From assembly GCA_011109175.1 (NCBI GenBank), contig RDEW01000011.1, positions 180,193 to 244,192 on the forward strand: DNA of 64,000 nucleotides. Direction: 5' to 3'. Shown one piece after another: positions 9,831 through 61,552 of the stretch; the first letter of the stretch is position 1; the number at the start of each line of letters is the position of its first letter. Made by a program: the position numbers and the translations under genes. The notes below the pieces were generated by a model. It was not told the origin of the DNA, made no database searches, and saw only the letters and a list, made by a program, of their open reading frames with translations. This DNA is from Dicyema japonicum (Eukaryota; Dicyemida; Rhombozoa; Dicyemidae).

Positions 9831-11206
9831 CTATCTGTAATACTTCGTGCGGATGAAAGGGAGTTTGGTGATTTTGGCCTCATAGTAACTCCCCCGCACG
9901 TTGAACTGCACCAAACTTTCATTTCTTGACTGAAAGTTTACGTAAGCCATAGCCAGGTTCCCCTTCACTTGTACTCCAACACAGGAACTTGTCACGTGGC
10001 CAATTTGAGTTCCGTTCATGTCGAAGATTTTAGTCCCAGCTAAAAAGATTATCAATGGAAGTACCCCTCATCTGCGGAGTCCTAGTATCACTGATGAGTC
10101 CCACGCGAGCCGATTTGTTTTGACTCACGAGAACCTCCTTCATCTTTTCGTACCCTTTAAAGTACCCTTCGGAGACTTTTTTCTTGCCTAGCGAGAAATA
10201 TAAGCCAAAATCAAACTCAACACCCACAAGAGATAAGCATCTCTAATGTTGATTGATTTGTTCAGCTCATTCCCGTACAAACAAAGACCTGCTTCGATCC
10301 GAAGTGAGTCACGTGCTGATAAGCCAGACAGAAGTCCTTTAGAGCCTCCCTTCGAGAAATTGAGGATTTGTGTAGCCACAAACTCGGCACAGTCATTAGG
10401 GACCATTAACTAACTGAAAACACAAAAAAACTTCAAATCCGTCTTCTCCTGTGTATCCCACTCGGGAGATCCTACAGTTTGGTACCCCGAATGCCTTGAC
10501 CGGAAAAATGGAATTCATGAAATTCAACTTATCCAATTTTAGGTCAAATCCTCTTTGGAGACATTCCATGGACATCGGTCCTTCAATAAAGGGTGGAAGG
10601 TACCCTGAATAGCCAACAGAGTCATGTTGAGAGGTTCCAAGGTAACATTCCAGTTAAATTGGTCAATCATGGTCTAACACGTGCTCTGAAAAGCCAAACC
10701 CGTAAGTGGGTAATGTCTTCATTAGCCTGACTGCAGTTAAGGACCACGTAGAAGGAATCCTCGGAGTCTCGGGTTATTACCAAATCATCAATAATCCCAG
10801 CATCGTCATTCAACATGACAGAATAAAGGCAGGCACCTGGTTTCATCTCCTTGATATTTCCCAGAGTAGCATGATCTAAGAGTCTAAGTTAACTAAAGGC
10901 AATACTCAACGACGTTATCTCCCTTTAGGATTACTTGCTTCATGTGGGTGACATCAAAGAGACCGAAAAACGATCGGACACTTTGATGTTCATTTAAAGG
11001 TGAGGAATACAGAAGTGGCATGCTCCACCCACAAAAATTGAACATCTTAGCGTTATTTCTCAAGTGAAATTCATGTAAACTACTACGGTGTAACTCAGTC
11101 TATAAATTAGCAAACTCAGCACATTTGTTGTAGAGCAGATCGTGCTAAAAGGTCTGATAAAATTAAAAGCTCGGAAAATTGAAGGATATATCTTAGAAGC
11201 AATCAT
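9831..11206 (-). CDS. AMT: aminomethyltransferase, glycine cleavage T-protein (mitochondrial)
   Basis: T-protein of the glycine cleavage system: it takes the aminomethyl group from H-protein lipoate, releases ammonia and makes 5,10-methylene-THF in the mitochondrial matrix. Seven GT-AG introns (11100-11122, 10884-10905, 10674-10699, 10581-10603, 10410-10431, 10188-10216, 10040-10064; 22-29 nt) give an exact 401-codon frame, the usual length of animal AMT. Residues 1-28 (MIASKIYPSIFRAFNFIRPF...) form an arginine-bearing amphipathic presequence. Then come 'KMFNFCGWSMP', 'LFDVTHMKQ', 'AGIIDDLV' (about residues 120-127, holding the conserved catalytic Asp region), 'LLAIQGP', 'GYTGEDGFE', 'RIEAGLCLYGNEL' and the C-terminal barrel ending 'KLPFIRTKYY'. 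The 10188-10216 junction is the least certain, because the usual 'GK' there reads 'SK'. The ATG at 11206 was chosen because it gives the presequence. Confidence 0.95.
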
Positions 11207-11467
11207 ACATTAATTCCAATCTGACAACTAACAATTAATTTTAATGTGCTAATGGTAAACCACATTAAATTTTCATAAATTTATCTAATTTTAAATTTAT
11301 ATTAGTTATTTAACTAAAATACAGTTTAATTGATCCCAAATTTACTAGCAACAATATTTAACTGCAGGGATTTAGGAATCGCTGCATTTTCCTACATATA
11401 AGCAGTTCGCTTAAAGCTTCAAACTAGAATTTGATTACTTCCTGTTCGAGAAAGGAGAGAATTCAAC
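11207..11467. promoter_or_regulatory. intergenic region between AMT and a possible divergent gene
   Basis: This AT-rich gap separates the AMT start (11206, minus) from a possible plus-strand start at 11468-11476, so it may be a shared promoter. No CpG-rich block is visible. 'tacatataag' near 11393 is a weak TATA-like match for the rightward gene. No binding site could be assigned. Confidence 0.3.
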
Positions 11468-11475
11468 ATGAACGC

Positions 11476-11745
11476 ATGCCGACTCTAAGAATTGTCAGTT
11501 CGGTTTGCTAAGTTTACCGATGGCGTCGGAGATGCGTTAGTCAACAGCAAAGAAGATTTTGCTAAACTGAAAGGCAAAACTTTAAGGCACCGTGCTGTGA
11601 TGTGCTGCCTGGATTAAAAGAAAGGTTAACTAAAGGAGCTATAATGAATTTTATACAGTTCACAGAAATGTCGAAAATGCCAGAAATGCCAAGTCTAGCG
11701 CCAAGAGAAACTCAATGTGGTTTCCATGGAGATGATTGTTGTTGA
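11476..11745 (+). CDS. possible small two- or three-exon gene, unknown
   Basis: An ATG at 11476 (MPTLRI) followed by a 19-nt GT-AG candidate intron (11494-11512) leads into an open segment beginning FTDGVGDAL. A second segment in another frame (about 11590-11745, APCCDVLPGLKERL ... GFHGDDCC, TGA at 11743) is also coding-like and cysteine-rich. A 47-nt candidate intron from 11543 would join them in phase, but it is longer than any other intron placed here, so the model is weak. The gene would be divergent from AMT. No family recognised. Confidence 0.3.
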
Positions 11746-11799
11746 TTTAATTAATCTTTGAAAAATTAATTTGTTAACTTCAGGTTGGTTAACATGTAG

Positions 11800-13190: not shown

Positions 13191-13199
13191 TAGTAACTT

Positions 13200-14849: not shown

Positions 14850-15410
14850 ATGGTATTAACTGGATCACCTAAATGTTCTGTATGCGACCAAAGCGTCGAA
14901 TTTTCTGACAAAATTGTTGTTTTTGGGAACGATTGTCACAAAAAATGTATTAAATGCAGTAAAATTTAACTGAAATGTAAAAAGGTAAATGCAACAAGCT
15001 TGTTGATGCAACCTCAATAAAGAAAGACGCCGATAGTTTATACTGCCCAGATTGTTTCCGTAGCTTGAAAAAAGGAAGTATGCCTCAAAAAAATTCAATC
15101 ACAATAAAGTAAAGAAATGTTAAAATGATAGTGTAAAATCAAAAAAATGTAAAATCTGCGGGAAAACAGTCTACGATGCAGAAAGGGTCAATGCAATCGG
15201 CTTTGTAGGCGTTTTAGTAATTTGCTAGGACATCCACAAGACCTGTTTTAAATGCCGGAGATGCGCTTGTACACTGCAGATGGGACAATACAGTGCTCAC
15301 GATGGGGATATTTTCTGCAACAGTGAGAATGTGATAATTATTTAGAATGCCATTATTCCCAATTCGGGATTAAAGGAATTGGCTATGGAGGATCTTTGAG
15401 TTTGGAATAA
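14850..15410 (+). CDS. CSRP: cysteine/glycine-rich LIM protein (CSRP/MLP type, two LIM domains)
   Basis: LIM-only adaptor of the CRP/muscle-LIM family, which binds actin-associated partners and shuttles to the nucleus. Four introns of 26, 23, 24 and 23 nt (14959-14984, 15109-15131, 15205-15228, 15323-15345) give 154 codons. LIM1 (about residues 9-60) has CSVC, then HKKCIKC with the next cysteine of KCNKL created across the first splice, ending YCPDC. LIM2 (about 83-135) has CKICGKTVYDAERV, HKTCFKCRRC and, across the fourth splice, FCNKCH. The final residues GIKGIGYGG match the glycine-rich motif that follows LIM domains in CRPs. Both zinc-finger junctions are wrong without splicing, which strongly supports the model. 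At 154 residues it is a little shorter than vertebrate CRPs (about 193). Confidence 0.92.
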
Positions 15411-16162: not shown

Positions 16163-17448
16163 TTAAGTGTTCATATAGTCATATATTCTGTCATAATAGT
16201 CCACCTTGATAGAACGATCCTCATTCAGATTCAGATCCACTTTGGTACCCCTAGAATATTTTGGAACGGTAAGAAGCTGAGCCACTTTATGGACAACCTC
16301 CGGGTTACAAGCTGTTTTTGATTCATCCAAGAACGGAAAGGGGTCACTTGCCCACATCAAATTTTGACTGGCCTTTGGGGGAGTTCTCCCATTGATAAAC
16401 ATGGCCGAAAGGGAATTGAGTTGGAAACACGCAAAGACAAGAGACTGTCCATCGGAGACCATGCATTGAGTCACGACGGGCTGAGGAATGTCCTGTTTGT
16501 AGAAAGGCCAGTAATCCTTGAAATGGGAGGTCGAAACCGCTTGTGCAAAATTCATAAGAAGAGCCTTATAAACAGGCCAGGATCCCCCGTTGTAAAATGC
16601 TAATAAGGAGTTATTAAAAGGGTCCCCAAGTCTGAACCCCGGCAATATCTCTGGAATCAACGACTTTCTGCAAATTCCATATCTCGGTGGGGGAAGCTCT
16701 AGGCTGGGAAACAAAGCCTGTCTGCATAAATCGTCGTCATCATCCAAGTACGACCTGATCCCACGTGTAGAGCGAATTTGTCGCAAGCACGTCCCTTCAA
16801 TTAAGAAGTTACAAAGTCCATATGCAGACCTTCCGGCACAATCTCCATTAATCGGACGGGTAAAGAAGCTCTTTAAATTTGTGAAGTCATCAAACTGCCA
16901 GAAATCATCAAACTTGAGGTCCTCACGGGCCTTTCTCAATTTTTCGGCGGTAAAATAATCAAAAACTGTCCGGAAAATGACTGAGGGTACATCTATCGAC
17001 TTTGGGTAACCCGAAAAGATCCTCAACTTTGTAAAAATTAAGTAGAAACTCCAATTTAGAGTTGACGGACTCAACCAATTTGTCTAATCCTTCATTGAGT
17101 TCCACGTGACCTTTTCGGGGAATCCTTTGATGATATGAGTCCTTGTAAGGTATTTGAGGACATCAAGATCACTTTCATCCGTACATTTTTGTTTGATAAT
17201 CCAAAAAACACGTTTTTGGAGGCCAGCATAGTAAATGAGGCGTTTTTGAAGAGTCGATCTTTTAGAAATCCTCATCTTGAAATCATGAAGGTTCCAAGCT
17301 CCCAATTCCGACAGTTGATCCCATTCACCTTATTTCGTTAAGATTTTGGCAAACCAGGAGGGAAACGCGGAGTAACTTTTGGATATAAGGATTCAACACG
17401 CTTTAGAGAAGAAAATAGTCTTCTGCTTGAATTAAGCAAAGAACACAT
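16163..17448 (-). CDS. mitochondrial ribosomal protein, mL37/mL65 (PDCD9) family
   Basis: Large-subunit mitoribosome protein. Introns at 17329-17354 (26 nt), 17142-17161 (20 nt) and 16966-16990 (25 nt) give exactly 404 codons; mL37 and mL65 are about 420-440 in humans. The N-terminus MCSLLNSSRRLFSSLKRVES is a good mitochondrial presequence, followed by 'LYPKVTPRFPPGEWDQL'. The C-terminal third carries the family signature: 'PQPVVTQCMVSDGQ' then 'FACFQLNSL', a short gap, 'NLMWASDP' and 'VVHKVAQLL'. The middle frame (HQRIPRKGHVELNEGLDKL) is open only if the 20- and 25-nt introns are used. I cannot decide between mL37 and mL65 by eye. It stands alone between LINE fragments. Confidence 0.78.
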
Positions 17449-21312: not shown

Positions 21313-22564
21313 TTATAATTTAGTACAATTTCGATCAATAAACCGTTCTTTGGCATAAAGAAGACAATCTGAGAACTCCCTAATCAAATCCCTCTCGCAA
21401 TAATCAGTCTCCATTCTCGCAGTCAAACACTCCCTTATTCTTTCAATCACAGAGTCATCCAGTATTTCATTATACGAACTAATGTCACCCAAACCACCAC
21501 CAGCCATTCCAGAAGGGGTCAGCACATGTGGCCAGGTTAGACAGAGCCACATCGTTTTTGAGGACCTGAGCCCGCAGATTCAATCGAGGGAAATCCAGAG
21601 GATTAGCAGAAAACTTCCTCAACAACTTAAATTCAGAGTTCCTACAGTCATCACAGCTACAATAGGCGGAACAGGACATTCCATCCTAAAAGTAAGTAAC
21701 CCCCAAACATACGGCATAACACTCACAGTAGTTCTTCAGACAGCTCGAACGCTTGCAAGTGCAGCCACGCTTTAGTTTGGACTCTTCCTTAGAGACGGTC
21801 TCTTTTGGTTTGAACGCCAGGGGATTTCTCGCCAGTAAAGATTGTATGGCCTGAGACCGTTCACTGTCGTAGTTCTCGTTGTTGTGGCAACCTGTGCAGT
21901 TGCAATTCTGGCAGTACATTCCGTTGGCGTAGCACTCACAATATCTAGGTAACTACAAGCGCTCACAGTTTCAGACATCGGGATTTTGTGCAGTTGCATG
22001 GCCTTCGAATGCGGTCGGTCGACCTAAATATCGTTGAGAGACTACATTGTGGCGACATCATTCTTGTCGTTAGAGAAAAGGGACGAACTCACGTGAGCGA
22101 GGGAGGACTGGAGTAAAGCAATCACTACCTTCTGAGGAGCCACTATGGAGTGGAAGGAGTTGTGCATGTTCAAACTGGCAGAGATCTAATAAAATAGCCA
22201 GGACTGACAGGTTTGGAAGAAATCTTGACGATCCTCTGTTTGGGTGGGACTGCCGGGGTGGTGTGCTTGACTTTGATCGAATTTGGCTGAAATATAAAAC
22301 TGGCAATACTGTGGCACGTGCTTGAGAATCGACCAACCTGTCCACTCTGAAGGATGGCATTTGAACGTTCGCAAAGTCATTAAGGGAGTACTTAGGGGCC
22401 ACTGACTCACTAACACTAGTTTTTCGTTTTATCGAATCCGCAGGAGTAACTGTCAGTTTGCTAGGAACAGCCCGTATGTTGACAGGCCCATGTGACTGGA
22501 ATTTGCTAGTGCTAATGACAGTCTTGAAAGCTGGCTTAACGTCTATATCCTTATCCTGGGGCAT
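21313..22564 (-). CDS. LIN54: LIN54/tesmin-like CXC (CRC) domain protein
   Basis: DNA-binding protein of the tesmin/TSO1 family; animal LIN54 reads cell-cycle gene homology elements within the MuvB/DREAM complex. Introns required by frame: 22309-22337 (29), 22186-22208 (23), 22024-22045 (22), 21945-21966 (22), 21686-21712 (27), 21479-21500 (22). Two more at 22108-22128 (21) and 22063-22092 (30) are multiples of three and optional; with them the protein is 351 residues. CXC1 (about 145-185) reads RRPCNCTKSRCLKL, then YCECYANGMYCQNCNC across a splice. It is joined by the conserved linker 'LLARNPLAFKPK' to CXC2 (about 215-260), GCTCKRSSCLKNYCECYADG, again completed by splicing. The C-terminal 'REFSDCLL' matches the end of LIN54. 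It is about half the length of human LIN54. It starts 142 bp below the FKBP6 stop, in the same orientation. Confidence 0.9.
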
Positions 22565-22706
22565 CCACCAGACACAAACTAAAATAGGCGGTCTATTTAT
22601 TAATTAATTAAAAAATAAAACTAATAAAAAAGAAAAACTATAATTCAAAAACAAAAATTCAAAGCAATCATTTTTTCTTCAAAACTTTAATAGAATTCTC
22701 GATCTA
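22565..22706. other. short AT-rich spacer between FKBP6 and LIN54
   Basis: Only 142 bp separate the FKBP6 stop (22707) from the LIN54 ATG (22564) on the same strand. It must hold the FKBP6 3' end and the LIN54 promoter, unless the two are co-transcribed. It is almost pure A/T with no recognisable site. Confidence 0.5.
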
Positions 22707-24169
22707 TCAATTAACAACACACACAACCCTTTCCGTCTCTAAATTCAGTTCTTTTGCCTTCTCATATACAAAGTACTTCTCCTGAGGGCTGAAGGAATCC
22801 CCAAAGACCACATCTTCACTTCCTTCATCTCCCAACTGACCCAGAATCTCCACAACGTACTCCCTGAAATCAGAATCCACAGTCAATTCAAGTTCTTTGA
22901 TAGACACGTCGTTTTTGGCCGAATTTTCCTGCCCAAACGCCTTCCTGAAAAATGCCCTCTCCTCATCTCTTATTGCCTTCGCCTCATTCTCCAGCGCTAT
23001 CATATCATAGCCAATCTGGGAGTTATTTGGCTCCAGTTCAAATGCTTTCTTCATGTATTTGACCGCTTTCTCCGCCTTCCCCTTCCCAGAGAACGCCTAG
23101 GTTTCACCCAACCTTACTTTCGACAGCCTGTATAGGGCCTTCACACATTTGGGATCAACATCGAGGCACTCCTTGCAGCATCGCACACACTCGCTAAAAT
23201 CCTTCTGTTTGAGGTAGCACATGGCCATGTTGGAAAAGATCTCCACTGTCATTCGGTTCTTCAGGATATCCTCATACTGGTTCTGAGGATGTCGTTCATT
23301 GAGAACCCGCAAGCACTACTATAAGGAAATCACTACTCTCTCGTAGCACTTAAGTGCTATCCTGTACTTCTTGAAAGAATAGGACTTGTTCCCCTCCTAA
23401 AATTGAGGTACCAAATACCTGTTTCTCATCCATGATCACCCTCTGGATCTCTTCAAAGGCCATATTTCGTCTATTCTCCTACAATAACTATCCTTCAAAC
23501 GTAAGGGGTATCGTAGTAAAAGTCGACTGGACTGGGAACAGCAAAATGCAGCATCTCTATGCGAAAGAGGACTACAATCACAACCCAGGGGACCATATGA
23601 GTTCTGTGGGACAACTGGGTAAATTCCCTTGCTCCCATAGGCGACGTCAGGATGCAAAAGGAACAAGGAGATCTCGTCAAACACCATAGACTTAATCGCC
23701 ACCTCAAGGCCGAATAAGATCGAGTCTAAAGGTCACTTTCCGAGTCAAACTAGAATCCAGTCGCATTCTTTTCGTCTGTATGTCATATGGGGTTGTGTTG
23801 CCTTCTAGGAACGCCTCGTACTTGACTGTAGTGACTTAAAAGAGTAACCTCTGACCACAAAGTGGTCTCCGGGAGTGGACTTACCAGAACCTGGCTGGAT
23901 CACTGCTTTCCAAATCATGGAGTTCCACATATCAGACATCTCAGTCTTCAGATCCTCAAAGTTGGAGATATCGAATGGCATAGATTCCAGGATAAGGACT
24001 GGGAGAAATGGCCGTCACCTGAGTAAGGAATATCGTCTCCGAATATGTCTTCATCATGTGGATCAACATCTGCCATGACGTCATCTACGTTGAATATTAC
24101 TCCTTTGTCAGACTTAAATATAACCAATTGTATAACCAAAGCTGCATCCACAAGGGTTTTTTCGTCCAT
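22707..24169 (-). CDS. FKBP6: FKBP6-like co-chaperone (FKBP domain plus TPRs)
   Basis: Immunophilin-like co-chaperone. Animal FKBP6 (Shutdown in flies) binds HSP90 and is needed for piRNA loading in the germline. Frame-required introns: 23999-24018 (20), 23826-23848 (23), 23726-23750 (25), 23572-23593 (22), 23479-23500 (22), 23397-23418 (22), 23316-23336 (21), 23097-23117 (21). An optional 24-nt intron lies at 24113-24136. The product is 420-428 residues. The FKBP domain (about 75-190) has 'KYEAFLEGNTTPYD', 'MRLDSNSILFGLEVAIKSM' (the FKBP6 LG-D-LWGME-SM pattern), 'AYGSKG' and 'VPQNSYVLFRIEML'. The prolyl-isomerase active-site aromatics are not evident, as in other FKBP6 proteins. TPRs (about 225-345) include 'MAMCYLKQKDFSECVRCC' and 'AVKYMKKAFELEPNN'. 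The acidic N-terminus includes 'PHDEDIFGDD'. Next downstream gene is LIN54. Confidence 0.87.
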
Positions 24170-24460: not shown

Positions 24461-24469
24461 ATTGGTACT

Positions 24470-26002: not shown

Positions 26003-26230
26003 CAGGGGTGTCAAACATGCGGCCCTCAGTGTACCTTAAATTAAAATAATTCCAAAGACCAAGGGTAACCAAACTAATTCAGGGGTGTCAAACATGCGGC
26101 CCTTAGCGTACCTTAAATTAAAATAATTCCAAAGACCAAGGGTAACCAAACTAATCAGGGGTGTCAAACATGCGGCCCTCAGCGTACCTTAAATTAAAAT
26201 AATTCCAAAGACCAAGGGTAACAAACTAAC
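26003..26230 (+). repeat. three tandem copies of the hAT left terminus
   Basis: Copies start at 26003, 26080 and 26156 with 'caggggtgtcaaacatgcggcc' and end with 'ccaagggtaac'. The copies are almost identical. The array duplicates the terminal binding region of the element. Confidence 0.9.
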
Positions 26231-26640
26231 TAGCTCCTTGATCCTGACTCGTTCCAGCGTTCCAGAACTTGTCTCAAGGTACAACATTGTCTTCGAGGGA
26301 GAATAGCTGGATCTTCTTGATGCCGGCCAGACATTGGGCGTCTCCTCAGTAAGGTGGATCCATTGACGCCATTGGAAGGAAAATAATTATGACCAACTAG
26401 CCACATAGCACCACATGGCGCCACGCGGCCAAAACCTTGACAAGCATAAGTGCGGCCAGATTAATGGCTATTAATTTAATTTATTAACCCCGGATACACA
26501 GAGAAAGAAGTTAAAGTAAACAACTAATTAAGTGTATCCAGTTTCCACTTCTACGAAAACAGAGTCCATCTGAATCAACATAAAGGGTAAAAGACGTCCA
26601 TACTTGCCGTTGTGGAAACCCCTCCAGTGGAGTGGGGGAG
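26231..26640. repeat. repeat nested inside the hAT element
   Basis: 26260-26430 is an inverted copy of the GGATCC/CATGTGG repeat at 1440-1550. 26484-26640 repeats 12219-12410. The block interrupts the sequence between the hAT terminus and its transposase remnant, so it inserted later. Confidence 0.6.
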
Positions 26641-26676
26641 TATAGCTCAAGGGTAGAGCGTTTGACTGCAGATCGA
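26634..26676 (+). tRNA. 5' half of a tRNA-Cys (GCA) sequence, truncated
   Basis: 'tatagctcaagggtagagcg' followed by 'tttgactgcagatc' reproduces the D arm and anticodon arm of metazoan tRNA-Cys, with the GCA anticodon in the 7-nt loop. A G-run that would start the acceptor stem precedes it. After the anticodon stem the match stops at 'gaatgac', and no T arm or 3' acceptor strand follows. It is a pseudogene or the head of a tRNA-derived element, not a functional tRNA. Confidence 0.75.
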
Positions 26677-26755
26677 ATGACTATAAAACACAAAAAATCA
26701 TTTTGTTATTTTTTAAATTTAATTAAAATTTTTTAATAGTTTTTGTAAATCGTGT

Positions 26756-27445: not shown

Positions 27446-28060
27446 TGAGCTTAACGTTGAGTAGAAACAGATTTTGTAGTATCCAAGAAGTTTAGTTTTC
27501 GAAGGGAAGAGAATATGAAGTTGCCATCATGTCTCCTGAATGTCATGAGGGGGTCTTACGTGATACCCAATACCTTGATAGAGTTTGTAGAGTGGATTAG
27601 AACTCCATTGAGGGTTAAAGAGGTTCAAAGTTTGTTATCCTTCTATTTGAAGTAAAAATTCATAGTACATGAATTTTCAGGGATTGTGTATAATAGGTTC
27701 TTTATAAGCCAACTGCTCAGGTTGTCCAGTAAATCATATAAGCGGGTAACCGCAGTGTGAACACTGCTCTATCGAATGGCGTTTCGTGACATTGATTGAC
27801 ACACGATTGGTTGCTCGTAGTGCATGGTTGCTAAAATAAGATAAAAGTAATTTTTATAAAGTTTATTCATTTAAATGCCTACTTTATAGATGCTATTTTT
27901 ATTTTGAACGTGTTGTTACAACGTGTTGTTCTGGTGTTTATACATTCTCTGAAACTTATTCCAATATAAGAGCTGTTGTTGGGGAAAGACCTAGCAACCT
28001 ACCCTGTATTTAAATGCCAAGAAAATCTTATGAGCAAACTCTCCTACGATCTAATTGGAT
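27446..28060. other. region without a recognised gene
   Basis: Continuation of the sequence split by the hAT insertion. Short open stretches only. No motif, tRNA or repeat match was found. Confidence 0.3.
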
Positions 28061-28069
28061 GCAACGTTA

Positions 28070-33630: not shown

Positions 33631-33879
33631 GACTGACCATGTGTCGTTATTGATTGTGCAAGTGTCGTTGTTGATTGAATAACCATATATTTATCGCATT
33701 AGTTTAAATTCTTTTTTTAAACCAAAGAGTTCAATGTTAAGAAAAGCTAGAAGAATAGTCTATTGATTCTCACCGTTCAACCCCAAAACATCAAACGAAT
33801 TTAAGTATAATAATGTCGATATAAATTTTTTGAAAGACGTTGTCGATGAAGACAGTCTGCGCATGATACATATGCTATT

Positions 33880-37530: not shown

Positions 37531-37599
37531 TCCAAAAGCAAGGATTCTTCCAGTGCACTTTCGAGGCTGCTTTCCTTATAATAACTGTTTTTATTAGAA

Positions 37600-38930: not shown

Positions 38931-39179
38931 ATTACTATTCTATCTGATGTTAGCCGTTAAAAAATGAAAATTTGTGAGAAATTTAAATTATTAAAAATTA
39001 CTAATCATTATAAAGATAGGAATTAATTAATTCATTGATTTATTTTTCATTAAAAAAAATTATTGATTTCTAACGGCTTTAACGCCACGTATAACGCCTT
39101 TAACGGCTCGTATTCAACCTGGGCTCGTATTCAACCGGTCACAATAAATAAATAGCGCTAATAATTTTTCTAACAAACT

Positions 39180-43043: not shown

Positions 43044-44562
43044 TTATTTTATAAAAAATATTTTTAAAGAGTCAATAAATTCACTAAGACCCGTGACGTT
43101 GTACAAAAATTCCTTTAAAGTTGGGTTTTCTGAATCGTAAATGCTCGTCTCTGATTTTTTGGGAACAAATTCATTAAATTTGTATTTCTCTAATCCTTCA
43201 ATTGTCATGCAAATTCCATCAGAATTCAGTTTGGTACCAAAAGGACAATCACAAACGTACGATCCATTTGTATTTCTGCATATCTTGTCACGTGGGCAGT
43301 TATGCAAGCCCGTGGAGCATTCATCCAAATCAGTACAATCGTGAATCTATAGTGAGACATAACTGTACATTTTTGTTCCATCTTTTTCCTTCTCCGCAGT
43401 CACAAAAATATGTAAATTTATTATTAACAACTTCCTTAAATTGTTTTTTTTCATAAAATAGGCGGCAAATTTTGTTCATTTTAATTTCGGAAAATTTTTC
43501 CCTCTCATTAATGTCTGATCTTTTGGCGTATTCGTTAGTCCCACACATGTCGTTATCCAGAGATAGCACATGATCTTCATCTTCTAGCTCATGGGGTTCA
43601 ATGGATCCGTAGCAGAGATCAGGACAGAACCACCGCTCGGCACAGTAGAATTCATTGTTCTCCTTCAATCTGAAGTCGTCCACCTCAATAAATTCATCTC
43701 CTGCGAATATTAGCTTGCAAATGTCGGAGACCAATCGCATATTCTGGTTTCTCGAAATTGTGTACCAACACAGGTAATAGCGAGCCCTCACTTTTAGCTA
43801 CCATGACTTTAATGAGTACCTTAAATTCCTCTGTTTGAGATAAACTCACAAACTTGAGGGAAGAATCGAGGAAAATTAAATTTTGGAAATTAAAAAAATC
43901 CTTAAAATCGGCTTTCTCAACGAGGTTGTTGGTCAAGTTATGAAATCGACTTAAAGTGGAATAATTATCGAACTCCTGTCCGTTCTTTAAAGAAATCAAA
44001 CTCGAGACAAAGTAGAGACAATTTTTTACTGAATTTTTGCACATTTCCTCGAGCTAGAATGAATTTTGTAAGAATACAATGCTATTTATGGCTCCAACTG
44101 AATTGGCGGGAAATGAAGTTCTAACATTCGGGCATTCGTCGAACTTTAGGCGGGAAAAATACCACAGAGCTGCTTTTTTGGACATTTTCCCTGCAAAAAG
44201 TCCTATCTTGTAAGTCAAGGAGCTTTCAATCCATCCCTTTGACTTTTTCGCAGCTGGTCTTTTGTCGATCTGTTCAAGAATCAAATTCTTGAGATTTTGT
44301 GATGAATTTGTTATTATTTTTGACACGTTCTTGACTAAATTGATTCCGTCATCAACACGTGGGTCATATGGATCAAATTTTTGCTGAGCTAATGAGATTA
44401 ACACCAAAACAAACCCAAATAAGGACCAACATACATTAAATGTAGAATAATCGACTGTTTTGGGGGAATATTCAAAGATTCTACTTTTTCTTTGTAGTTG
44501 TCGAATTGCTGTTCTATTTTGAGTTTACTAGTTTTGTCATTTTGGAGTTGACACAACTCCAT
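43044..44562 (-). CDS. large protein with a calcium-binding EGF module, family unknown
   Basis: Five exons joined by introns 44389-44426 (38), 44054-44077 (24), 43798-43819 (22) and 43347-43368 (22) give 470 codons. An optional 24-nt intron (43985-44008) would shorten this to 462. The ATG at 44562 opens 'MELCQLQNDKTSKLKIEQQF', and the 38-nt first intron is the least certain. Residues 50-350 have no motif I recognise; they include 'CAERWFCPDLCYGS' and 'YFCDCGEGKRWNKN'. From about residue 373 comes DCTDLDECSTG...C...CRNTNGSYVCDCPFG...DGIC, a calcium-binding EGF domain (D-x-D-E-C, N-T-x-G-S-Y). This implies secretion or the extracellular face, yet the modelled N-terminus has no clear signal peptide, so a 5' exon may be missing. 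Alone on its strand. Confidence 0.75.
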
Positions 44563-47573: not shown

Positions 47574-48760
47574 ATGTATGAAGATAATGGTAATTTCTGA
47601 TTTAATGATATTTTTAAAGAAACTGACTCAGTCAGCAATAATTGCCATTGCCACAGTGAGAGATCTTCCGACGCAGCCTCGAAAAAAGCAAAAAAAAGTT
47701 GCTAATTGCCTTCATCATTTCCGGTATTTTTATGTTGTTGGAGTTCATTGGTAACGTTATTTTGCCATTTAGGTGGATTTTTATCAAACAGTATCTCAGT
47801 CATGACGGACTCTGCTCACATGCTGGTAGACGTCATTAGCATCTTTGTCGGTTATCTTTCTCTTGTGGTCCTTACTAAGCCATCGACCAAAAAATTCAGT
47901 TTTGGTTGGCACAGGATTGGTTTATGACTTTATAATTTGAAGAGGTTCTCGCCTCTCTTTTCTCTATGATTATGCTCCTCATTTTGACTGTCATCTTTGA
48001 CTACGCCGCAGTTAACAGAATCATAAGCAACGACTATCAAATTGATTCGAAGACCATGCTGATTGTCTCTGCATGTGGAGTGGTATTCAACATTATGTTG
48101 GTCGTTTTAACATTTCAGACTGGTTTCAGTTCTCCACCAAGGACACAACCATTCCCACCAGAAAGCAAACGAACTGTTTATAGACCCAGGTTGAAAGATC
48201 ATCAAGTGAATCATTTCAGACCCTGCAGCCTTCATTCACGTTTTAGGAGATTTGATTCAGAGCGTCGGAGTACTTATAGCGGCCATTATCATCTACTTCA
48301 AAGTACTTAAATGATTTACCTCAGCCGAACTTAATAATCGTTGACCCAATATGCACCTTTATCTTTTCCATTTTGGTCATCATCAGTACATATAAGGTTA
48401 TGAAGGATATTTTTTATGTTCTAATGGAAGGTATGTTTGAAATATTTCTGTTAGCTGTACCTGTCGGAGTTGACTACAACGTTCTTTGGAGTTGTCTGAC
48501 AGCTATCCCTGGAGTTATAGCTGTTCATAACGTCCGAGCATGGTCTATTACACATTCCAAGCTCGTAATTGCAGCTCACATAGCTGTTGGTTTGCCTTTT
48601 ATGTTACTGATTAGAAAGAGACAGAAATTACACCAAAATTTTGAATGATTGCTCAGACAAGCTCAAATTGGACTTTAACTTTTCAGAAATATATCTTCAA
48701 GTGGAAGAATATCACCAAAAAATGAGGAATTGTTCCGTATGCATTGGCCCTTCAAAATAA
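47574..48760 (+). CDS. SLC30A: vesicular zinc transporter, SLC30A2/3/8 (ZnT) type
   Basis: Cation diffusion facilitator that moves Zn2+ out of the cytosol into vesicles in exchange for protons. Introns: 47590-47619 (30), 47751-47772 (22), 47920-47942 (23), 48123-48141 (19), 48190-48219 (30), 48303-48324 (22), 48431-48454 (24), 48590-48614 (25). The model gives 330 residues, but one extra base is needed in the A8 run at 47690-47697; without it the frame breaks after 'SKKAKKS'. The N-terminus has 'NNCHCHSE', as in ZnT2/3/8. Both transport-site HxxxD pairs are present ('SAHMLVD' and 'HVLGD'). 'HNHSHQ' is the histidine-rich loop. The cytosolic domain reads 'VDYNVLWSCL ... VHNVRAWSI' and ends 'LQVEEYHQKMRNCSVCIGPS', as in vertebrate ZnT2/3. 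The 19-nt intron is the shortest in the window. Confidence 0.92.
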
Positions 48761-49269: not shown

Positions 49270-49850
49270 ATCTCAACAAATAATGATTTTGCCAGAAGGA
49301 AGACCCTCGCTTGGGTAACGATGAACAAGTTGAAGAAAGAGTGGATTGGCAGACGACGATCCTGCACATCATTTCGTGTGAGACTGTATGAAGCCTTTGT
49401 CAAGCCGATCCTAATGTACAATTCATCGACCTGGGGAACGTCCAAAACCGAACAACTTGGACTAGACTTTTTCAATCGAAGACAACTTAGATCCCTACTA
49501 GAACTGAATCGGCCAGCAAGAATAAAAAAGGAATCGCTGTACAAGAGATGTTGCACGGGTCCACTGAGTCTCGAAATTGCTGATATGCGCTGGAGGCTAT
49601 TTGGACATATCTTGCGTATGATATTAGGCTCTTAGGCGCTCCAGCAAACAGCAATGGAGGACTACTTCATGAGACAGGGACCGTTCATTCGTAAACGCCG
49701 GCGTATTACGCTACCTGAAACACTCGACGAAGATCTAAAGCTTGTGAACAAACGTCTAAGAAGTGGGGACGACCTCAACGAGTTGAGGAAACTCTCTTAC
49801 GATCGAGGAGGTTGGAAGAGGTCGGTTCGGAGGATTTTTTGAATGCTGCA
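49270..49850 (+). mobile_element. LINE ORF2 C-terminal region, well preserved
   Basis: Frame 49321-49635 encodes 'SFRVRLYEAFVKPILMYNSST' (WGTSK follows), 'NRRQLRSLLELNRPARI' and 'RWRLFGHILRM'. After one stop the rest reads 'PETLDEDLKLVNKRLRSGDD' to the end. It is the best copy of the family also seen at 13.6, 34.4 and 35.0 kb. The RT core is absent (5' truncation). Confidence 0.8.
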
Positions 49851-51125: not shown

Positions 51126-51129
51126 ATAA

Positions 51130-53810
51130 TTAATTCAAAAATTAAATTAAGGCATCTGGATGGCCATGCTATTTCCCCTAACAATAGCCAACGAGATACG
51201 TTCTCGGAACCAACCAGTCTCTCGCGGATCCTTGGTCACAGCTTGAATCATGGAGCCGATCTTACGAACCAACTCATCTGCTTGGGAGCCAAGGATTCCT
51301 GACGTTTCCACCGCGAATGGAACAAAAAGATACTCCTTCGAAATTCTCTGGTACTTCCTTCTCTTTCGTTCCTCGGCCTGCTTTGAAGCATGTCCTGGGT
51401 CTGAAGCAGAAGCAAACAAATTAGACGGGGAATAAGTATCAACACACGTCGCGTCTCAGATCAGGTTTCGTCCGTTGGCGAATGGAAAAGTCGTCATCCC
51501 ATCAGGGCACAAAAACAAATAGGACTTTTGCTTATCACAATTGACCGGAGCATTCAGGTACAAATTCATCCGTTCATCCCAAGCTCCCGACGGCGTCAGC
51601 GGTACGTTTAGTCCGGAAGTAGAGTGAAGGACCGTATCCACTAAACGCCTTGACGAGCCGAACGAAGATAAATAGGCGCCCAAAGCAACGTCCGAAGGAA
51701 GAGAAAGACCCAAACCACCGCAGGCTACAGGGAGTGAGGCCTGTAACCATCCGAAATCATCAAAACGAACATTAAGAATGGACCCCATCGTCGACCGGAT
51801 ATCCATATCAATTAACGATAGAAGGTCTTTTTCGGCGTAACATGGGGATCCCCGTAGAATAAAAAGGAATTTTGGAGAAGGAGACAATTCTTCAGCATAA
51901 AAAAGGCGACATGACGGTCCAAAAAACTCATCCTGTCGGCATACTGACGTAAATTAGTCCTCTTGCCTTCCAATAACTCCCTCACCCGGTTTACCAAAAT
52001 CCCACACCCAAGGAAGTCGAGAGAATCAATATGAGTCTCCCTAACCCCTGGGATGATTCGCAGAGTTTTCTATGAAAAAGGTAGAATGAATCGGAACTCA
52101 AATTCAGATTAATTGCTTCGCACTTTTCATTGTTAAATTCCAGACCGATTTTTTTACACAAACGTCTGATCGATGCAACTTTGGAGAGAATATCATCGGG
52201 ACTTCCACCGAGAATACGATCGTCCAGATACCAGACGTTCAGTGGAGTGCAACGGTCCTGGGCAATATGGAAGATAGAATAGAAGAGGACCGAGTGGGTC
52301 CCCCTGTTGAACTCCGGATCCGGACGAAATAATTCCACTGCCAAAAACAAGAGGGGATGGATCCGAATACGCGAGATACACAAAGGGATAAATCTGAGGA
52401 ATCCTCCTCCTACAGGTATCAAGGACGGTGTCCCTTCTGACTGAATTGAAGGCATTCCGGAGGTCCAATTTGAATAAAACTCTGTCCTCAACATTCAATT
52501 CAGCTGATTGTGACGCAAATTCTCTCACTGCGTGGATCCCAGCTTCACAGCCGCCATTGATTCCGACACCAAGCTGCGAAGGACAAAATTCGGCTGAAAT
52601 TCGGGAGATAACAAAACGACAAGCCATTTTTGCGGATAAACGTCGAAATACGTTTCCAATTGCAATGGGGCGAATACCACCATCTTTCTTTCCAAGGCCC
52701 GTTAGATTCGCCGAAAAGAGGAGATTCCGACCAAAATCGGAAACGTTTCCGGAAAGCATGCGAGCTACGAGATCCCGGGTTCGCTCCAAGAGTAGCGATC
52801 CAGGCCTGCCGACAGAATGGGACACCAAGTCTGACAGATGGCCAGGTTTGAGACCGTCAACTCCTCCACTGCTACTTCTTCGGAAAGAACAAAGAGCGTT
52901 GTAAATGGCTGAAGTGGAAATATCATGCATAGATTGTTCTGGACGAACAGGTTTACAAAAGTCTTCTGGTTCTGGAGGATGTTTCTGTCCCAATATACAG
53001 AGTGTCTCCTGAGTGGCTTTCACCGGGTCAGAATCCGTACAAACAGTTCGAACTGCAGCAGTAAGATCGCCCTCCATCAATTTCCTCCTGACACGAGAGC
53101 GAAGCCTCTCAGGAGCCATACTGGATTGTTTGGAATTGGACTTTGGGAAGTAATCAACTGGGGAAACAAATAATTCTTCAGCCAGGGACTCCCATGAATC
53201 CATAAAGGCACTCACGCGCTTCTTCAGGACATGGGATAGAGAGGGTTTCCGAGAAGATGGGGCAGGCTTACGCTCTAACCCCATAGCCAGGACAGGGAAA
53301 GAGAAAAGAACCATCCAATCCTTTTTCGAGCCATTGGACACAGCTTTCTCAATGCAAGAAGAAAGGGCAGAAGCAATTGAGATCAGGGAAGCCTTGGGAA
53401 TTTTGACAGGGATAATCTTCCTTTGTCGCGTGTTTGATAATAAAACCAGAAAATCCTCCGGAGACATGGCTTCCAGAAGATCTGATACAGATGATGATGA
53501 CACAAAATGATCATGAGGTTCAATTTTAGTGAGTTCCAGACGGCACGACCGACCACGAGGGAAGTGATCGAGCAATTTTCTTGGATAGTTTTTCACAACC
53601 TATGTGGTAGTAACCAACACATACAGAACATCGAATCCCGCACTTGCGAGAATTGGATACTCTGCACCCTTTGCATGAGGTGTCTTCGTGTAGTACATCA
53701 TAAAAAACAGACATGAATAGATAATAGGAGAGAGAACTGTATATATTAACGACGACATTTATTTTAAGCAAAGAACAGTCATAATTAGGGCAACCAGAAA
53801 ATTGCAATTT
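51130..53810 (-). mobile_element. long LINE with PHD-like finger, RT and R2-like nuclease domain
   Basis: Minus strand, N to C. A PHD-like finger 'CKGCRVSNSRKCGIRCSVC' ... 'YYHIGCEKLSKKIARSL' lies at 53560-53680. A 330-codon clean stretch carries 'SSSGGVDGLKPGHL', 'GGIRPIAIGNVFRRLSAKM', 'CPSQLGVGINGGCEAGIHAV', palm A 'LFKLDLRNAFNSVRRD' and motif B 'GVQQGDPLGPLLF'. After a frame change come 'VWYLDDRILGG' (YLDD catalytic box) and 'LEFNNEKCEAI'. The C-terminal 'CGGLGLSLPSDVALGAYLSS' follows, and the final 'KEYLFVPFAVETSG' ... 'FRERISLAIVRGNSM'. The nuclease segment between 'NGRNLI' and 'FASASDPGH' is deleted here but present in the 54.7- and 62.9-kb fragments. A 4-bp duplication (GTCGGTCG near 53555) breaks the frame after 'LPSWS'. 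Confidence 0.85.
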
Positions 53811-53929
53811 TTATTTTGAAAATTGCAAATAAAAATTTTTTAATTGTAAAAGATTGCATTACGGAAAAATTCCGAAATTATTTTTATTTTTTTCTGGAAT
53901 TAATAAAAATCTATTAACAATAAAATATT

Positions 53930-54560
53930 ATTTAATAACTATGGGGAGAGCGGCTGCTGACATCACGGAGTAGGCGTTTCCGCGGACAACTTGGATACCA
54001 ATTCTTTGCCTCAGTCAGACCGCTTCCCGCACGTCTTTCTTGTGGTGGGCCAATTTTTCCCCGATTTCCTTGAGGAAAGAGGCTGTAATACTTCCGGCCG
54101 CACCAGACGTCTCGATTACTACCGGTACAAAACGGTAGCGGTCTCCAATTTCGCCATATTTTTTAATCTTGATCGGCTGCCGATCCAGCAGACTGCGTCG
54201 AGCTGAGTATAATCGAGTTCGAGATAGAATCCACAACAGTGCAGTCCCATACGAGCGATTTTCCCTCAGTGAACGGAAAGATAGTTAACCCATCCATCTC
54301 CGCGGTCCAATCCCACAGGCTCCAGTACTGCCGGGAAGCCTGCCGCTTCAAGAGCTCGCATGACAATGTTGTTCATATCAGCATGGCGGGGTGCTCTTCC
54401 CACACTCCTTTTGCACGAGAGCGGGTGCAGCCCTTTGGCATCGACGATCCCTTCACAGCGACATTGGTGTCCGACGCAAACATCAGCTCCCAGGCGTTGT
54501 GCGATCCCAATCCGAATACAGTCATCGTCCAAAAGGGTCCTCAGGGATGAACACGGGAGT
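53930..54560 (-). mobile_element. nuclease-domain fragment of the same LINE family
   Basis: Minus strand: 'LLDDDCIRIGIAQRLGADVC' then 'GHQCRCEGIVDAKGLHPLSC' (CCHC-like), 'RHADMNNIVMRALEAAGFP', 'LEPVGLDRGDG', a short gap, then 'DRYRFVPVVIETSGAAGS' and the C-terminus 'VRGNAYSVMSAA'. Frame changes at about 54300 and 54200. Confidence 0.8.
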
Positions 54561-54649
54561 GCATCCAGCCACGCTCCGCTCCAATGGTTGGAAATTATTT
54601 ATTTATCTAATTTTATTTAGAACAACAAATAAATTAATTTAGACAATAA

Positions 54650-55140
54650 TTAGGACGACAGAATGGCGAAAACGTTACCTCTGATAATCGCCATTTCGAG
54701 CCTCTGCCTCAACCAGAGTCCCTCTTGTGGCTCGCACCTTTTTGAGGCGAGTTTGCTTCTAATGCTGTGGAGAAAAGCGTCCGTCTTCGCGCCTACAGTT
54801 CCAGTTGTCTCCACAGCAATAAAGGCGAAATGGTAATGGTCTCCGAGGAATTCGTACTTATGGATCTTCTTGACCTCCGCATGGTCGGCTGCGTCTCCAG
54901 AAAAGTGCGTTGCCGTCAGCAATCTGGCTCCTGAGAAGGTGTCCACACACGTTGCGTCCCAGACGAGTGATTTTCCGTGGGAGTATGGGAATAACGTTAT
55001 TCCATCCGGCCTTTTTCCGTCGCCTCTGTCTAAGTCCAATGGTTCCAATTGGGTCGGAAATCCCGCAGCCTTGAGGGCTCGAAGAATGATGTCATTGAGG
55101 GCTGCGTGGCTCGACCAGCACTTCGTCGGCAAGAGAGTGG
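54650..55140 (-). mobile_element. intact nuclease domain of the same LINE family
   Basis: A clean 160-codon frame: 'HAALNDIILRALKAAGFPTQ', 'LEPLDLDRGDGKRPDGITLF', 'HGKSLVWDATCVDTFSG', 'HYHFAFIAVETTGTVG', 'LWLRQRLEMAIIRGN'. The RPD-x15-D spacing with the following 'AVETTG' resembles the PD-(D/E)xK restriction-like endonuclease of R2-type LINEs. It is the best-preserved example in the window. Confidence 0.8.
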
Positions 55141-55189
55141 ATGTAATAGCCTCGAACTTTCATTAAATTATATATAATTGCAATTTATT

Positions 55190-56050: not shown

Positions 56051-56942
56051 TTAAGAACTTCTAAAATCTGTTGACATTAAAAACAGTTGAACTTTTTGAT
56101 ACCATCCACGTGGCCTCTCAATATATCTTCCTACCCTTTCAGTGGTAACATCGGAAAGTTCAGATGCTTTGACAAAACTCGTTACTCCGTTCTGTTCAGT
56201 AACCAATTTTGGATTTCTACAAGTAGTCCTCATTGATCCTATGGAGGAATATCTATGGGTGTGAACCAAGCCGACCCCATTTCATATAAAATGCACTGGG
56301 GGATGTTATAATGGTCTATGAAACTCCAAACCTGGCTGTAATTCCAGTCAGAAATGGGATTAATACGCATTAATTGAGGCCAGCCTTCATCACAAGGCAT
56401 CATTGGGAGGACTGGATAAGAAGCTGGACTAACACCATCAAAATTACAGTCATCCTTTCGCATTCCCATGATAATAGCTTTAATTTCCTTGTTCTGCTTA
56501 CTGAATTCGAATAGGGCTGATTTGTACTCCCCTCTGTATTCCACGTGTCGAAGATCAAGTCTAAGCTATCTCAAATTCCAACCTATTCACAACTCTTTTG
56601 ATAAAATCAGTTATTTCTGGGAAGTTTTCCTCTTTCGATATGAACAGAGTCATCACCCGCAGATTCTCTGCGTTGAAAGAACTAAAATCGACCAAAAATG
56701 TAAACCTTTGCTTCAAGGCAGAAATAAACAAATAAAGGACAATCATTGACTCCTTCCCGCCTCCGAAAGCGACACAAAATTCGGTATGACTAAATAATTC
56801 CCAAATCTAACTTGTAAAGTGTCAAAGCATATTTTAGTAGAACCAGCGATTTTTTAACAAACGCAAAATGTTCTTTTTCTGCTTCAAATATGATCGAAGA
56901 GAAAATATCTTCTAAGTTAATTTATAAACAACTACCATCCAT
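56051..56942 (-). CDS. FLAD1: FAD synthase (FMN adenylyltransferase, PAPS-reductase-like fold)
   Basis: Adenylates FMN to FAD. Introns 56912-56935 (24), 56790-56811 (22), 56566-56590 (25; a 28-nt alternative also fits) and 56253-56275 (23) give 265 codons from ATG 56942. This is the length of a single-domain FAD synthase like yeast FAD1, without the MoCF domain of human FLAD1. The P-loop-like 'TEFCVAFGGGKESM' is about residues 48-61 (the usual SGGKD is GGGKE). Then come 'LRVMTLFISKEENFPEI', 'IKAIIMGMRKDD', 'DEGWPQLMRINPISDWNYSQ' and 'CILYEMGYSSIGSMRTT', where the GY-S-IGS motif is completed only by the last splice. The end reads 'ELSDVTTERVGR'. Part of the last exon is duplicated at 57435-57745. 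Confidence 0.92.
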
Positions 56943-57119
56943 GTTGTTTTCCATATAAATTTATTTATTTAAAACTAAGAAAATTGTTATTTTAAATATT
57001 TTTAAATTATTAAATTTTAATTAAATACTTTTCCTTTTAAAAAAGTTTTCCTTTTTCCTTATAATAAACTATTTGTTAAAAAGTTAATGCATATTATAGT
57101 ATAGGAGATGTTAATGCAA

Positions 57120-59445: not shown

Positions 59446-59565
59446 TTTTTTTGACTTTATGATAAATTTATCTAGAAAAAAAAATTTTTAAATATGAAAA
59501 AAGCTAATCAAAAATATTATAAAATAATGTAATTCAAAACGTTTTCAGGTCAAAAATCTCGGTCT
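59446..59565. repeat. dispersed AT-rich repeat
   Basis: Second copy of the repeat at 49080-49245, directly abutting the SINE. Confidence 0.6.
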
Positions 59566-59875
59566 TTAATAATAATAACAGCCTTTTCAGGAGAGCCATA
59601 ATATTTATAGCTCCGCATAGGCAACACCCACTTTATTTTAGTAAAGAACAGTTAATTTTAACTAATCGTAGAACCAAGGAATGATTTTCCTATCTTTTTT
59701 CTTTTTCTTGTGTGTGGGTCCTTTCTAGACAATCCAGTTCTGCAGTGAATATCCACTGGTGAAGGTGTCACTCGTCAAGCCCTTTTAGCATCGTAGATGC
59801 GTGGAACCTTCCGAGAATCGAAACCGTAACCTAAGCCACTTTAGCCCGACACCTAACCACTATGCCTTCGGCTCG
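59563..59875 (-). repeat. tRNA-derived SINE, near full length
   Basis: Read on the minus strand it starts with a tRNA-like head: 'ggcatagtggttaggtgtc' (A-box region) and 'ggtttcgattctcg' (B-box GGTTCGANTC with one insertion). The body follows, ending in 'ggctgttattattatt', a (TTA)n tail. About 75% or more identical by eye to 63435-63765. Confidence 0.8.
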
Positions 59876-59929
59876 TTCTTTAGATAATAATTTTATCAGC
59901 CCGTTACATTTTTTGATTATGAAAATGGG

Positions 59930-60200
59930 TCGGAATTCAGAAATCGAGAAATAACAAACTTTGCACTGATTTCAACATCAAGCAAATTAACAGGCCTAAC
60001 AATTTTCTGACACAAGAGATTGTCGAAGGATTCAATCAAACGATAACGAGAAAGTTGTCCAAAATGCTGGATAACAGTGGAAAAAAGTGGCTTGATAAAT
60101 TAGAAAATGCTGTGTACAGTTATAACATATCTGTCCATTAATTTTCTAACGAAAGTTTTTTCGAAAGATGTCCATTAATTTTCTAACGATCGAGCTGTAG
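59930..60200 (+). mobile_element. integrase core fragment
   Basis: 'ENGSEFRNREITN' and, after a frame change, 'EIVEGFNQTITRKLSKMLDN' and 'YSYNISVH' equal the integrase at 40904-41242. The last 20 bases ('tccattaattttctaacga') are duplicated in tandem at the right end. Confidence 0.7.
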
Positions 60201-60544
60201 GAGGGGCTATACTAAAAATAGTTACTTAAATTAATTATTTTTGGTGGTTAATTAATCAATAATGAAATTAAATAAAGTTAATCTTAGTTCAAGGTCAAAA
60301 ATTTGTGCTACGTTATAAATACTGGACTTTTCCTTAATATTTGATATTCCTACATAATTTCTATGCGGTCCTACCAGAGGATTTTCTGTTTTGTCCGCTA
60401 AAGTAGCAATGGCTTGTACGAGAAAATTAACTTGATGAAAGTTTTTCCGCGAAATCTAAGAAACTCCAAAGGCCTGAAAATTTTGTTTTGCCTATGACAA
60501 TGGTTTCTGTCCAATAAATTTAATTCCCAAAGTATAATCATTTA
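60201..60544. other. AT-rich spacer
   Basis: No coding sequence recognised between the integrase fragment and the membrane-protein stop codon. Confidence 0.35.
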
Positions 60545-61552
60545 TTAAAGTAAAGCAGTATACTCCGTCGGCCTTATTTCCCGTCGAAGTTTCGTGCGAA
60601 AACCCCCAATGATCCGCACAACGCCAATAACCGTAAATAACACAACTGCGATTGTAATACAAATTATATAATTTATTGATGTAGAGCCTGCCATCACGAA
60701 ACATTCAGAGTCTAAAATTCACAAAACCTTGTACCTATTTCAGGGAAACTGAAATTCAAGCTGTTTTTAAGAATTAGAGCCCTAAATGATGAAAATCTAA
60801 CGTTTATGAAATCATGGAAATTAGCAGTAAACATTTTGGAGACACAGGAACTTCCAAAATAGACATATCTCTGGTTATGGGGGTACCAAAATCCAATAAA
60901 ATTGTTTTGCCTGATAAATCCAATATGCGAAATATAATATTGACTTTGGGTCACATTAAATATAAATAAAATTATAAAGTTGCTCCCGATTAGAGACAAC
61001 CTAATCCCAGAGTTTATGTATTTAATTTTTGTGATTATATTGCCATCAGAATAAACGGGATCTTTTCTCTACAGAAAAATATTACAATTTACATTTTTAT
61101 CAAAATACATGATTTTAAAATACCCACTTAAAACAGCTTTGACTTGTTTCTCGGAAATAAAATACCAAAATTGAACATCTGAGTCGATGGATTCAACAAA
61201 GGAATTTACTGGCTAAATTAGATTTATACTTTTTCCAGTAAAATATGCACCGGAATATTTTCTGAAATATTGTACCGTCAAGGAATAGATTTCGAGAGAA
61301 AAATAATTTTCAAATCTCTGAGAAATATGCCCACATCTATAATATCCTTCAAATTTGATTCTTGGGAGGACTACAGCCTTGGTCATGTTTACTTTGATGG
61401 TTAAATATAATTTACTGGAATTTATCCCAATTTTTATTGTTATTTTGTAGTATTTTTTTGAAACTTCAACAGAAACGTCTAGCAATAGAATTCCTTTTAC
61501 GATTCTAATAGATTTACCACGTACTCATGTTTATTGTTTACATTAAATGCAT
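60545..61552 (-). CDS. single-pass membrane protein, family unknown
   Basis: Introns 61505-61541 (37), 61209-61229 (21), 61069-61092 (24) and 60712-60734 (23) join five exons into 300 codons from ATG 61552 to TAA 60545. Every junction is in phase, though the 11-nt first exon (MHLI) is tentative. The N-terminus 'IVKGILLLDVSVEV' is mildly hydrophobic. Residues 20-245 look like a beta-rich outer domain ('YYKITIKIGINSSKLYLTIK', 'FEGYYRCGHISQRFENYF') with several NxS/T sites. The last splice creates 'EIDSECFVMAGSTS', followed by a clear transmembrane helix 'YIICITIAVVLFTVIGVV' (about 260-280) and a basic tail 'FRTKLRREIRPTEYTALL'. This is the layout of a type I surface protein. I do not recognise the family. 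Confidence 0.72.

Follow-up and report, generated by a model that had tools for sequence, protein, structure and literature searches.

What are the short inserts that interrupt the genes of the 64,000-nt stretch of DNA considered here (C13:180193-244192, in a 64.67-Mb assembly of 191 contigs; hereafter the window)? Eight genes, among them those for the aminomethyltransferase AMT, the LIM-domain protein CSRP and an SLC30A zinc transporter, contain segments of mostly 20-30 nt that begin with GT and end with AG, and that have to be removed before a conserved protein can be read. With a probability of about 0.92, we predict from the sequence that these segments are spliceosomal introns removed by an ordinary spliceosome, in a genome that is likely to be that of a dicyemid, a minute parasite living in the kidneys of octopus and squid. 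The decisive tests for introns are the alignment with related proteins in which the ends of the inserts were left free, and the length peak that is specific for GT-AG boundaries.

In the first of these tests, seven proteins were aligned to the DNA, with inserts allowed to have any ends. The queries were 20 hand-picked relatives each for AMT and SLC30A, five relatives for GLDC (glycine dehydrogenase, the P-protein), and single sequences from solved structures for Prp8, FLAD1, LIN54 and one LIM domain of CRP1. Of the inserts found, 35 were 15 nt or longer. When the boundaries were permitted to slide by at most 7 nt, 31 of these proved to have GT...AG ends, compared to a random expectation of 1.95 (p 5e-35), and 33 of the 35 were 21-29 nt long. 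GT..AG was found in five of the six inserts in AMT, in six of the seven in SLC30A, and in three of the four in FLAD1. Once GT-AG introns were allowed, the alignment score increased in all seven genes (AMT from 246.5 to 368.0, SLC30A from 315.7 to 425.1, GLDC from 360.5 to 531.2, Prp8 from 778 to 940, FLAD1 from 105 to 147, LIN54 from 133.5 to 165, and CSRP from 38.5 to 66.5). This procedure placed 34 GT-AG introns, of which 33 are counted below, with the exclusion of a 14-nt piece in SLC30A that is an apparent artefact. The 24-nt SLC30A intron 48431-48454, whose length is a multiple of three, showed up as eight surplus residues in comparison with ZnT8 if it was retained.

Prp8, from another contig, provides a case in which the result of the removal can be compared directly with a solved structure. 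The piece of its gene at C87:1221896-1223223 contains five inserts (26, 22, 24, 24 and 23 nt), on the placement of which the trained gene finder and the boundary-free alignment agree. Without them, 401 residues can be aligned gap-free with the solved Prp8 structure 9r8v_A and with equal spans to hPrp8 (3jcr_A), and the PROCN domain then scores 740.9 bits, compared to 559 bits when the best match without splicing is taken. The piece is AT-rich, with 32% GC where the surroundings of the window have 37.9%, and it receives a negative coding score from the codon table that was trained on C13; composition therefore differs among contigs.

The second test concerns length. We used a self-trained gene finder, which started from codon usage given by base composition and from a flat prior of 15-60 nt for intron length, and which was applied to the window together with its 200-kb flanks (264 kb in total, 37.9% GC, 4.0% N). 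From this flat prior it converged at 22-23 nt, with 57 of the 263 introns of the final training round being 22 nt long and 53 being 23 nt long. As a control, each of the 256 possible pairs of boundary dinucleotides was run with the flat length prior and a single codon table, which was itself derived from the GT-AG models. GT-AG was first among the 256 pairs in the share of introns that fall within a 5-nt window (79 of 226, or 35%, at 22-26 nt), while the next highest share was 24% (42/172) and the next highest count 60/290. Retrotransposon-like genes are included in the length training, in the dinucleotide counts, and in one count of adenines given below (72/138); for the analysis of 5' sites and decoys they were removed according to a hand-made list, which reduced 24 genes with 138 introns to 17 genes with 115 introns.

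In the window itself, the gene finder recovered AMT, the mL65/PDCD9-like gene, LIN54, FKBP6, the EGF-module gene, SLC30A and FLAD1, as well as CSRP under looser settings, and all eight proteins match the expected Pfam families above the cut-off. Their 47 introns, pooled from several gene-finder settings and from the homology alignments, range from 20 to 30 nt, with a mean of 23.3 nt, a median of 23 and a mode of 22 (16/47). A preliminary description of this DNA, made from the sequence alone, had proposed that ultra-short introns are the rule here, with a mean of about 24 nt and 22 nt as the commonest length; both statements hold for the DNA examined, the former on the basis of the boundary-free alignment, the length peak in the 264 kb and the spliceosomal genes. 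It had counted 48 introns, 19-38 nt long and distributed over nine genes. The ninth of these genes, a "membrane-protein gene" at about 57-61.5 kb, is unconfirmed: its best gene-finder model scores 9.5 and corresponds to no recognisable protein. The length of 154 residues given for CSRP was reproduced; the full N-termini given for AMT and mL65 are absent from our models. Thirty-three of the 47 introns have a length that is not a multiple of three. Statistics on length modulo three and on stops, compiled for the set of 115 introns described above, are uninformative about selection, since a stop-free intron with a length divisible by three would escape the gene finder.

The machinery that such introns would require also appears to be encoded: U1, U2, U4, U5, U6, Prp8, SF1 and U2AF65 all have matches in the genome. 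Among the small nuclear RNAs (snRNAs), U1 has 11 matches, with the 5' end ACUUACCUG in 10 of the 11 copies; U2 has 25, of which 22 are above the cut-off (best 155.1 bits), and the branch-pairing GUAGUA, within GUGUAGUAUCUG, is present in 12 of the 12 copies retrieved. U4 is represented by one match (59.7 bits), U5 by fifteen, and U6 by ten, nine of them above the cut-off. On the protein side, Prp8 is accompanied by the helix-hairpin domain of SF1 (SF1-HH, 80.5 bits) and by a U2AF65-like gene (C114:219969-221071), matched piecewise along the profile, whose spliced model contains two RRM_1 stretches. The U2 genes are multicopy, and the copies seen carry one extra base directly before GUGUAGUA in comparison with the Rfam consensus. 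U12 and U6atac have one match each, the former at C68:163471-163599 (85.4 bits) and the latter at C34:237761-237858 (37 bits, with a cut-off of 33). The minor spliceosome thus seems to persist alongside the ultra-short introns.

A number of observations weigh against the interpretation of the inserts as introns. In the dinucleotide control, GT-AG attained a total coding score of 1534.1 and was only 43rd of 256, with 42 pairs scoring higher (the top 14 between 1590.8 and 1653.3; the middle pair 1443.0), and for this reason we reject the restoration of reading frames under the flat prior as a proof. Because GT-AG is 43rd by coding score and first by length peak, the argument from frames is weak, while the argument from length is strong; the frame repair on which the preliminary description relied has little weight if taken alone. 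That description had also claimed that excision of GT...AG segments mends practically every frameshift. Some irregularities persist, however: frameshifts remain in SLC30A (one when the ends are free, two with GT-AG ends), and in GLDC there are none with free ends and two with GT-AG. Four of the 35 boundary-free inserts lack GT..AG, two are 41-42 nt long, and one 13-nt insert in GLDC was excluded from the 35. The number of introns shifts with the settings of the gene finder (8 or 9 in LIN54, 6 or 7 in FLAD1, 4 or 5 in the EGF-module gene), and the flat-prior ab initio model of Prp8 is wrong, with six introns, four of them of 31-53 nt; the ab initio introns therefore depend on the length prior. 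As for the machinery, the best U1 match (69.0 bits) is slightly below the Rfam gathering score of 69.5, the best U2AF65 piece (82.6 bits) is below the whole-protein cut-off of 310.3, and two of the 14 prokaryotic genomes used as controls also give matches to the U2AF65 family.

Two other explanations of the inserts have to be considered. The inserts could be internally eliminated sequences (IESs), present in the germline DNA and lost from the DNA during development. Ciliate IESs are short inserts within coding sequence and are marked by TA direct repeats. Such repeats were found at the ends of only one of the 23 inserts tested in AMT, SLC30A and GLDC, with 2.1 expected by chance, and 20 of these 23 have GT..AG. 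The 24,065 circular contigs reported in a dicyemid assembly (PMC6543705) would fit DNA elimination; against it stand the GT...AG ends found by the boundary-free alignment, the matches to all five major snRNAs, and a comparison of genomic DNA and cDNA of Dicyema which, in the portion of the report available, recognised in such inserts introns of the spliceosomal type (PMC2222250). Taken together, elimination at the DNA level appears very improbable. Less probable still is over-fitting, i.e. the mending of sequencing errors or decayed genes by convenient GT...AG pairs, which could draw on the poor rank of GT-AG by coding score and on the gene models that shift between runs, but which is at odds with a GT-AG-specific length peak emerging from a flat prior and with the gap-free match of Prp8 minus its five inserts, and is strongly contradicted by the GT...AG ends of inserts located without any splice-site rule.

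If the inserts are spliceosomal introns, the signals within them must be accommodated in very little space. The 5' site beyond GT is weak, with 0.30 bits at position +3 and at most 0.11 bits at +4 to +6 (115 introns of 17 genes). Near the 3' end, 59 of the 93 introns with a length of 20-24 nt have an A at position -7; among GT...AG decoys the corresponding counts are 1201 of 3761 for non-coding ones (p 9e-10) and 99 of 281 for those in exons (p 3e-6). With retrotransposon-like genes included it is present in 72 of 138 ab initio introns (maximum of 60 in 5000 shuffles), and outside the genes of the homology test in 56 of 87 (22.3 in shuffles, none of 2000 reaching this value). The homology-placed introns speak against a fixed position, since only 10 of 33 have this A (8.6 in shuffles, 675 of 2000 reaching), and we therefore rejected the idea that a sharp branch point at -7 is the rule in general. 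The frequency of A at -7 varies from gene to gene: it is 13/15, 8/10 and 6/8 in the genes at window-relative positions -25126, -56510 and 22668, with 13/15 in a coiled-coil gene, and 1/6 in GLDC (-51629). This contrast may reflect two classes of introns or chance.

A looser motif, TNAY with its A anywhere between -10 and -6, is enriched in both sets. It occurs in 54 of 87 ab initio introns (24.6 in shuffles, 0/2000 reaching) and in 20 of 33 homology-placed ones (11.7 in shuffles, 4/2000 reaching); without Prp8 the latter become 15 of 28, with 9.1 expected and 31 of 2000 shuffles reaching this value. The longer YTNAY is enriched in the ab initio introns (34/87 vs 15.0) and not in the homology-placed ones (9/33 vs 7.4). 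The stretch between the TNAY motif and the AG, about three positions long (-5 to -3), is rich in pyrimidines (69-73% C/T). We read this combination, without regarding it as proven, as a compressed and degenerate putative branch site. The preliminary description had remarked that introns this short leave almost no room for a separate branch point and polypyrimidine tract; this is half right, as the signals do seem to be compressed, but not to be absent.

On these grounds the following scenario can be envisaged. The inserts would be removed at the RNA level by an ordinary U2-type spliceosome, with U1 defining a 5' splice site that offers little beyond GT and A/T at +3. The branch adenosine, within the TNAY context, would often precede the 3' end by 6-10 nt and be followed by approximately three pyrimidines. 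Each intron would be recognised as one unit (intron definition), and the near-fixed length, together with an AG that follows shortly after the branch A, may stand in for strong sequence signals. A bolder proposal can be put forward only tentatively, as we consider it somewhat more likely to be wrong than right: splicing in a dicyemid may operate on a near-fixed cassette of 22-23 nt, with the branch A some 7 nt ahead of the 3' end, as in the 15-nt introns of Stentor, and with canonical U1, U2, SF1 and U2AF65 plus a minor spliceosome; an animal intron would then have reached its physical minimum without any rebuilding of the machine. U1, U2, SF1 and U2AF are thought to occupy the 5' site, the branch point and the 3' site together, and a 22-nt intron provides little space for these three sites. 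If the rest of the genome is alike, the minimum geometry of splicing would become testable in a system with recognisable U1, U2, SF1 and U2AF65. On the practical side, such a genome would be misannotated by software for gene prediction or RNA alignment in which longer introns are presupposed.

Ultra-short introns as such are already published for dicyemids (PMC2222250, PMC6543705, PMC6736024), and those described here are slightly shorter. According to the parts of these sources that were available, the mean is 26.2 nt for 16 introns of Dicyema acuticephalum (PMC2222250), while in the genome of Dicyema sp. the median is 27 nt and about two thirds of the introns are shorter than 30 nt, orthonectid introns being longer (median 57; PMC6543705). 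For D. japonicum, a genome of 67.5 Mb with 36.7% GC, 4.1% gaps and a mean intron length of 38.2 is given (PMC6736024); a long tail, or else the prediction tool, could account for this mean. The size of the present assembly (64.67 Mb) and, in the 264 kb, its GC (37.9%) and its share of N (4.0%) are close to these figures; these features and the intron size, rather than a marker gene, are the grounds on which the genome is attributed to a probable dicyemid, possibly D. japonicum itself. A lineage outside the dicyemids whose introns shrank independently is an unlikely alternative. The shorter mode speaks for it, as does the absence of a close named match among the 120 relatives listed each for AMT (of 7025), SLC30A (of 487) and GLDC (of 7999); the agreement with D. 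japonicum and the longer introns of orthonectids speak against it. Our introns resemble the published ones in being very short and fairly uniform, with several to each conserved gene, in a compact genome of similar size. They differ in their mode of 22-23 nt, which is below the values given above (26.2 as a mean, 27 as a median), and in the partial branch-point-like motif; the accessible text of PMC2483917, which lists 41 dicyemid introns, describes their 5' signal as the weakest known and finds no signature of a branch point in them. No report of a branch point in dicyemids was found among the open-licence papers listed in our searches. As far as these searches show, four elements are new: the demonstration by boundary-free alignment, the mode at 22-23 nt, the inventory of snRNAs with those of the minor spliceosome, and the partial branch-site signal.

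Outside the dicyemids, comparably short introns are known from Paramecium and from the nucleomorph of Bigelowiella. Both belong to lineages unrelated to dicyemids, and the shortening must therefore have been independent. Their introns (20-35 nt and 18-21 nt, respectively) are of a similar length class and have degenerate signals, as far as the excerpts of PMC2222250 and PMC2483917 go. In the ciliate Stentor coeruleus, according to the sections available of PMC9505925, the introns are of 15-16 nt, and the branch A occupies position 10 or 11. The similarities to the introns described here include the near-fixed length, a branch A, putative in our introns, close to the 3' end (six nt from it in Stentor) within a weak consensus, and a machinery with intact U1 ACUUACCU and U2 GUAGUA and with SF1 and U2AF present (PMC9505925). 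On the other hand, both the length (15-16 nt) and the branch position (position 10 in about 91% of introns) are much more tightly constrained in Stentor than here.

Table 1. Predicted genes of the window with their introns, and retrotransposon-like stretches between them (positions are those of the window).
Feature	Positions	Strand	Introns	Remarks
AMT (glycine cleavage T-protein), coding region	9831..11096	-	10040-10064 (25 nt), 10188-10216 (29 nt), 10410-10431 (22 nt), 10581-10603 (23 nt), 10674-10699 (26 nt), 10884-10905 (22 nt)	5' end provisional
CSRP, two LIM domains, 154 aa	14850..15410	+	14959-14984, 15109-15131, 15205-15228, 15323-15345	
mL65/PDCD9-like mitoribosomal protein	16163..17229	-	16966-16990, 17084-17105 (ab initio only)	N-terminus provisional
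LIN54, two CXC domains	21313..22564	-	8-9, e.g. 21479-21500, 21945-21966, 22024-22045, 22108-22128, 22186-22208, 22287-22309	
FKBP6 (FKBP + TPR)	22668..24169	-	ten of 20-25 nt (22704-22727 ... 24113-24136), ab initio only	
EGF-module gene	43044..44562	-	43347-43368, 43798-43819, 44054-44077, 44389-44414; 43950-43973 optional; ab initio only	
SLC30A2/8-like zinc transporter	47732..48760	+	47751-47772, 47920-47942, 48097-48118, 48303-48324, 48431-48454, 48590-48614; 48190-48219 (30 nt, gene finder only)	homology match reaches further 5' than 47732
FLAD1 (FAD synthase, PAPS-reductase domain)	56051..56954	-	e.g. 56253-56275, 56424-56447, 56561-56582, 56682-56705, 56790-56811, 56912-56935	
Reverse-transcriptase-, endonuclease- and integrase-like stretches	28014-30379, 33872-34318, 36592-39762, 49321-49842, 51147-55163			named by eye from open reading frames and gene-finder output

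The identity of the products in Table 1 follows from their matches. AMT contains the Pfam domains GCV_T (174.5 bits) and GCV_T_C (49.4 bits) and matches the aminomethyltransferase 1wsr; among the 120 matches listed of 7025, its relatives, with 34-43% identity, are scattered over animals, fungi, bacteria and unnamed proteins. CSRP has the LIM domain in two stretches and matches CRP1 (1b8t), and homology also places two of its four introns. LIN54 has the TCR domain in two stretches and matches the lin-54 homolog 5fd3, with one intron placed by homology. SLC30A (Cation_efflux, 120.5 bits) matches zinc transporter 8, and FLAD1 (PAPS_reduct, 89.4 bits) matches the FAD synthase 8ron. The mL65/PDCD9-like protein is assigned to the PDCD9 family with 33.1 bits (cut-off 25), FKBP6 contains FKBP_C and TPR, and the EGF-module gene contains EGF_CA.

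The GLDC gene is located about 50 kb to the left of the window (C13:128563-130787), so that the genes for the P-protein and the T-protein (AMT) lie about 60 kb apart on one contig; homology places ten GT-AG introns of 21-32 nt in it, with the two frameshifts mentioned above remaining. An actin gene was located on another contig (C111:560939-562110). As for tRNA genes, ARAGORN finds none in the window, while Rfam yields a single match of 33.4 bits (window positions 26636-26714), about 400 bp from which there are three tandem copies of 77 bp (26003-26229).

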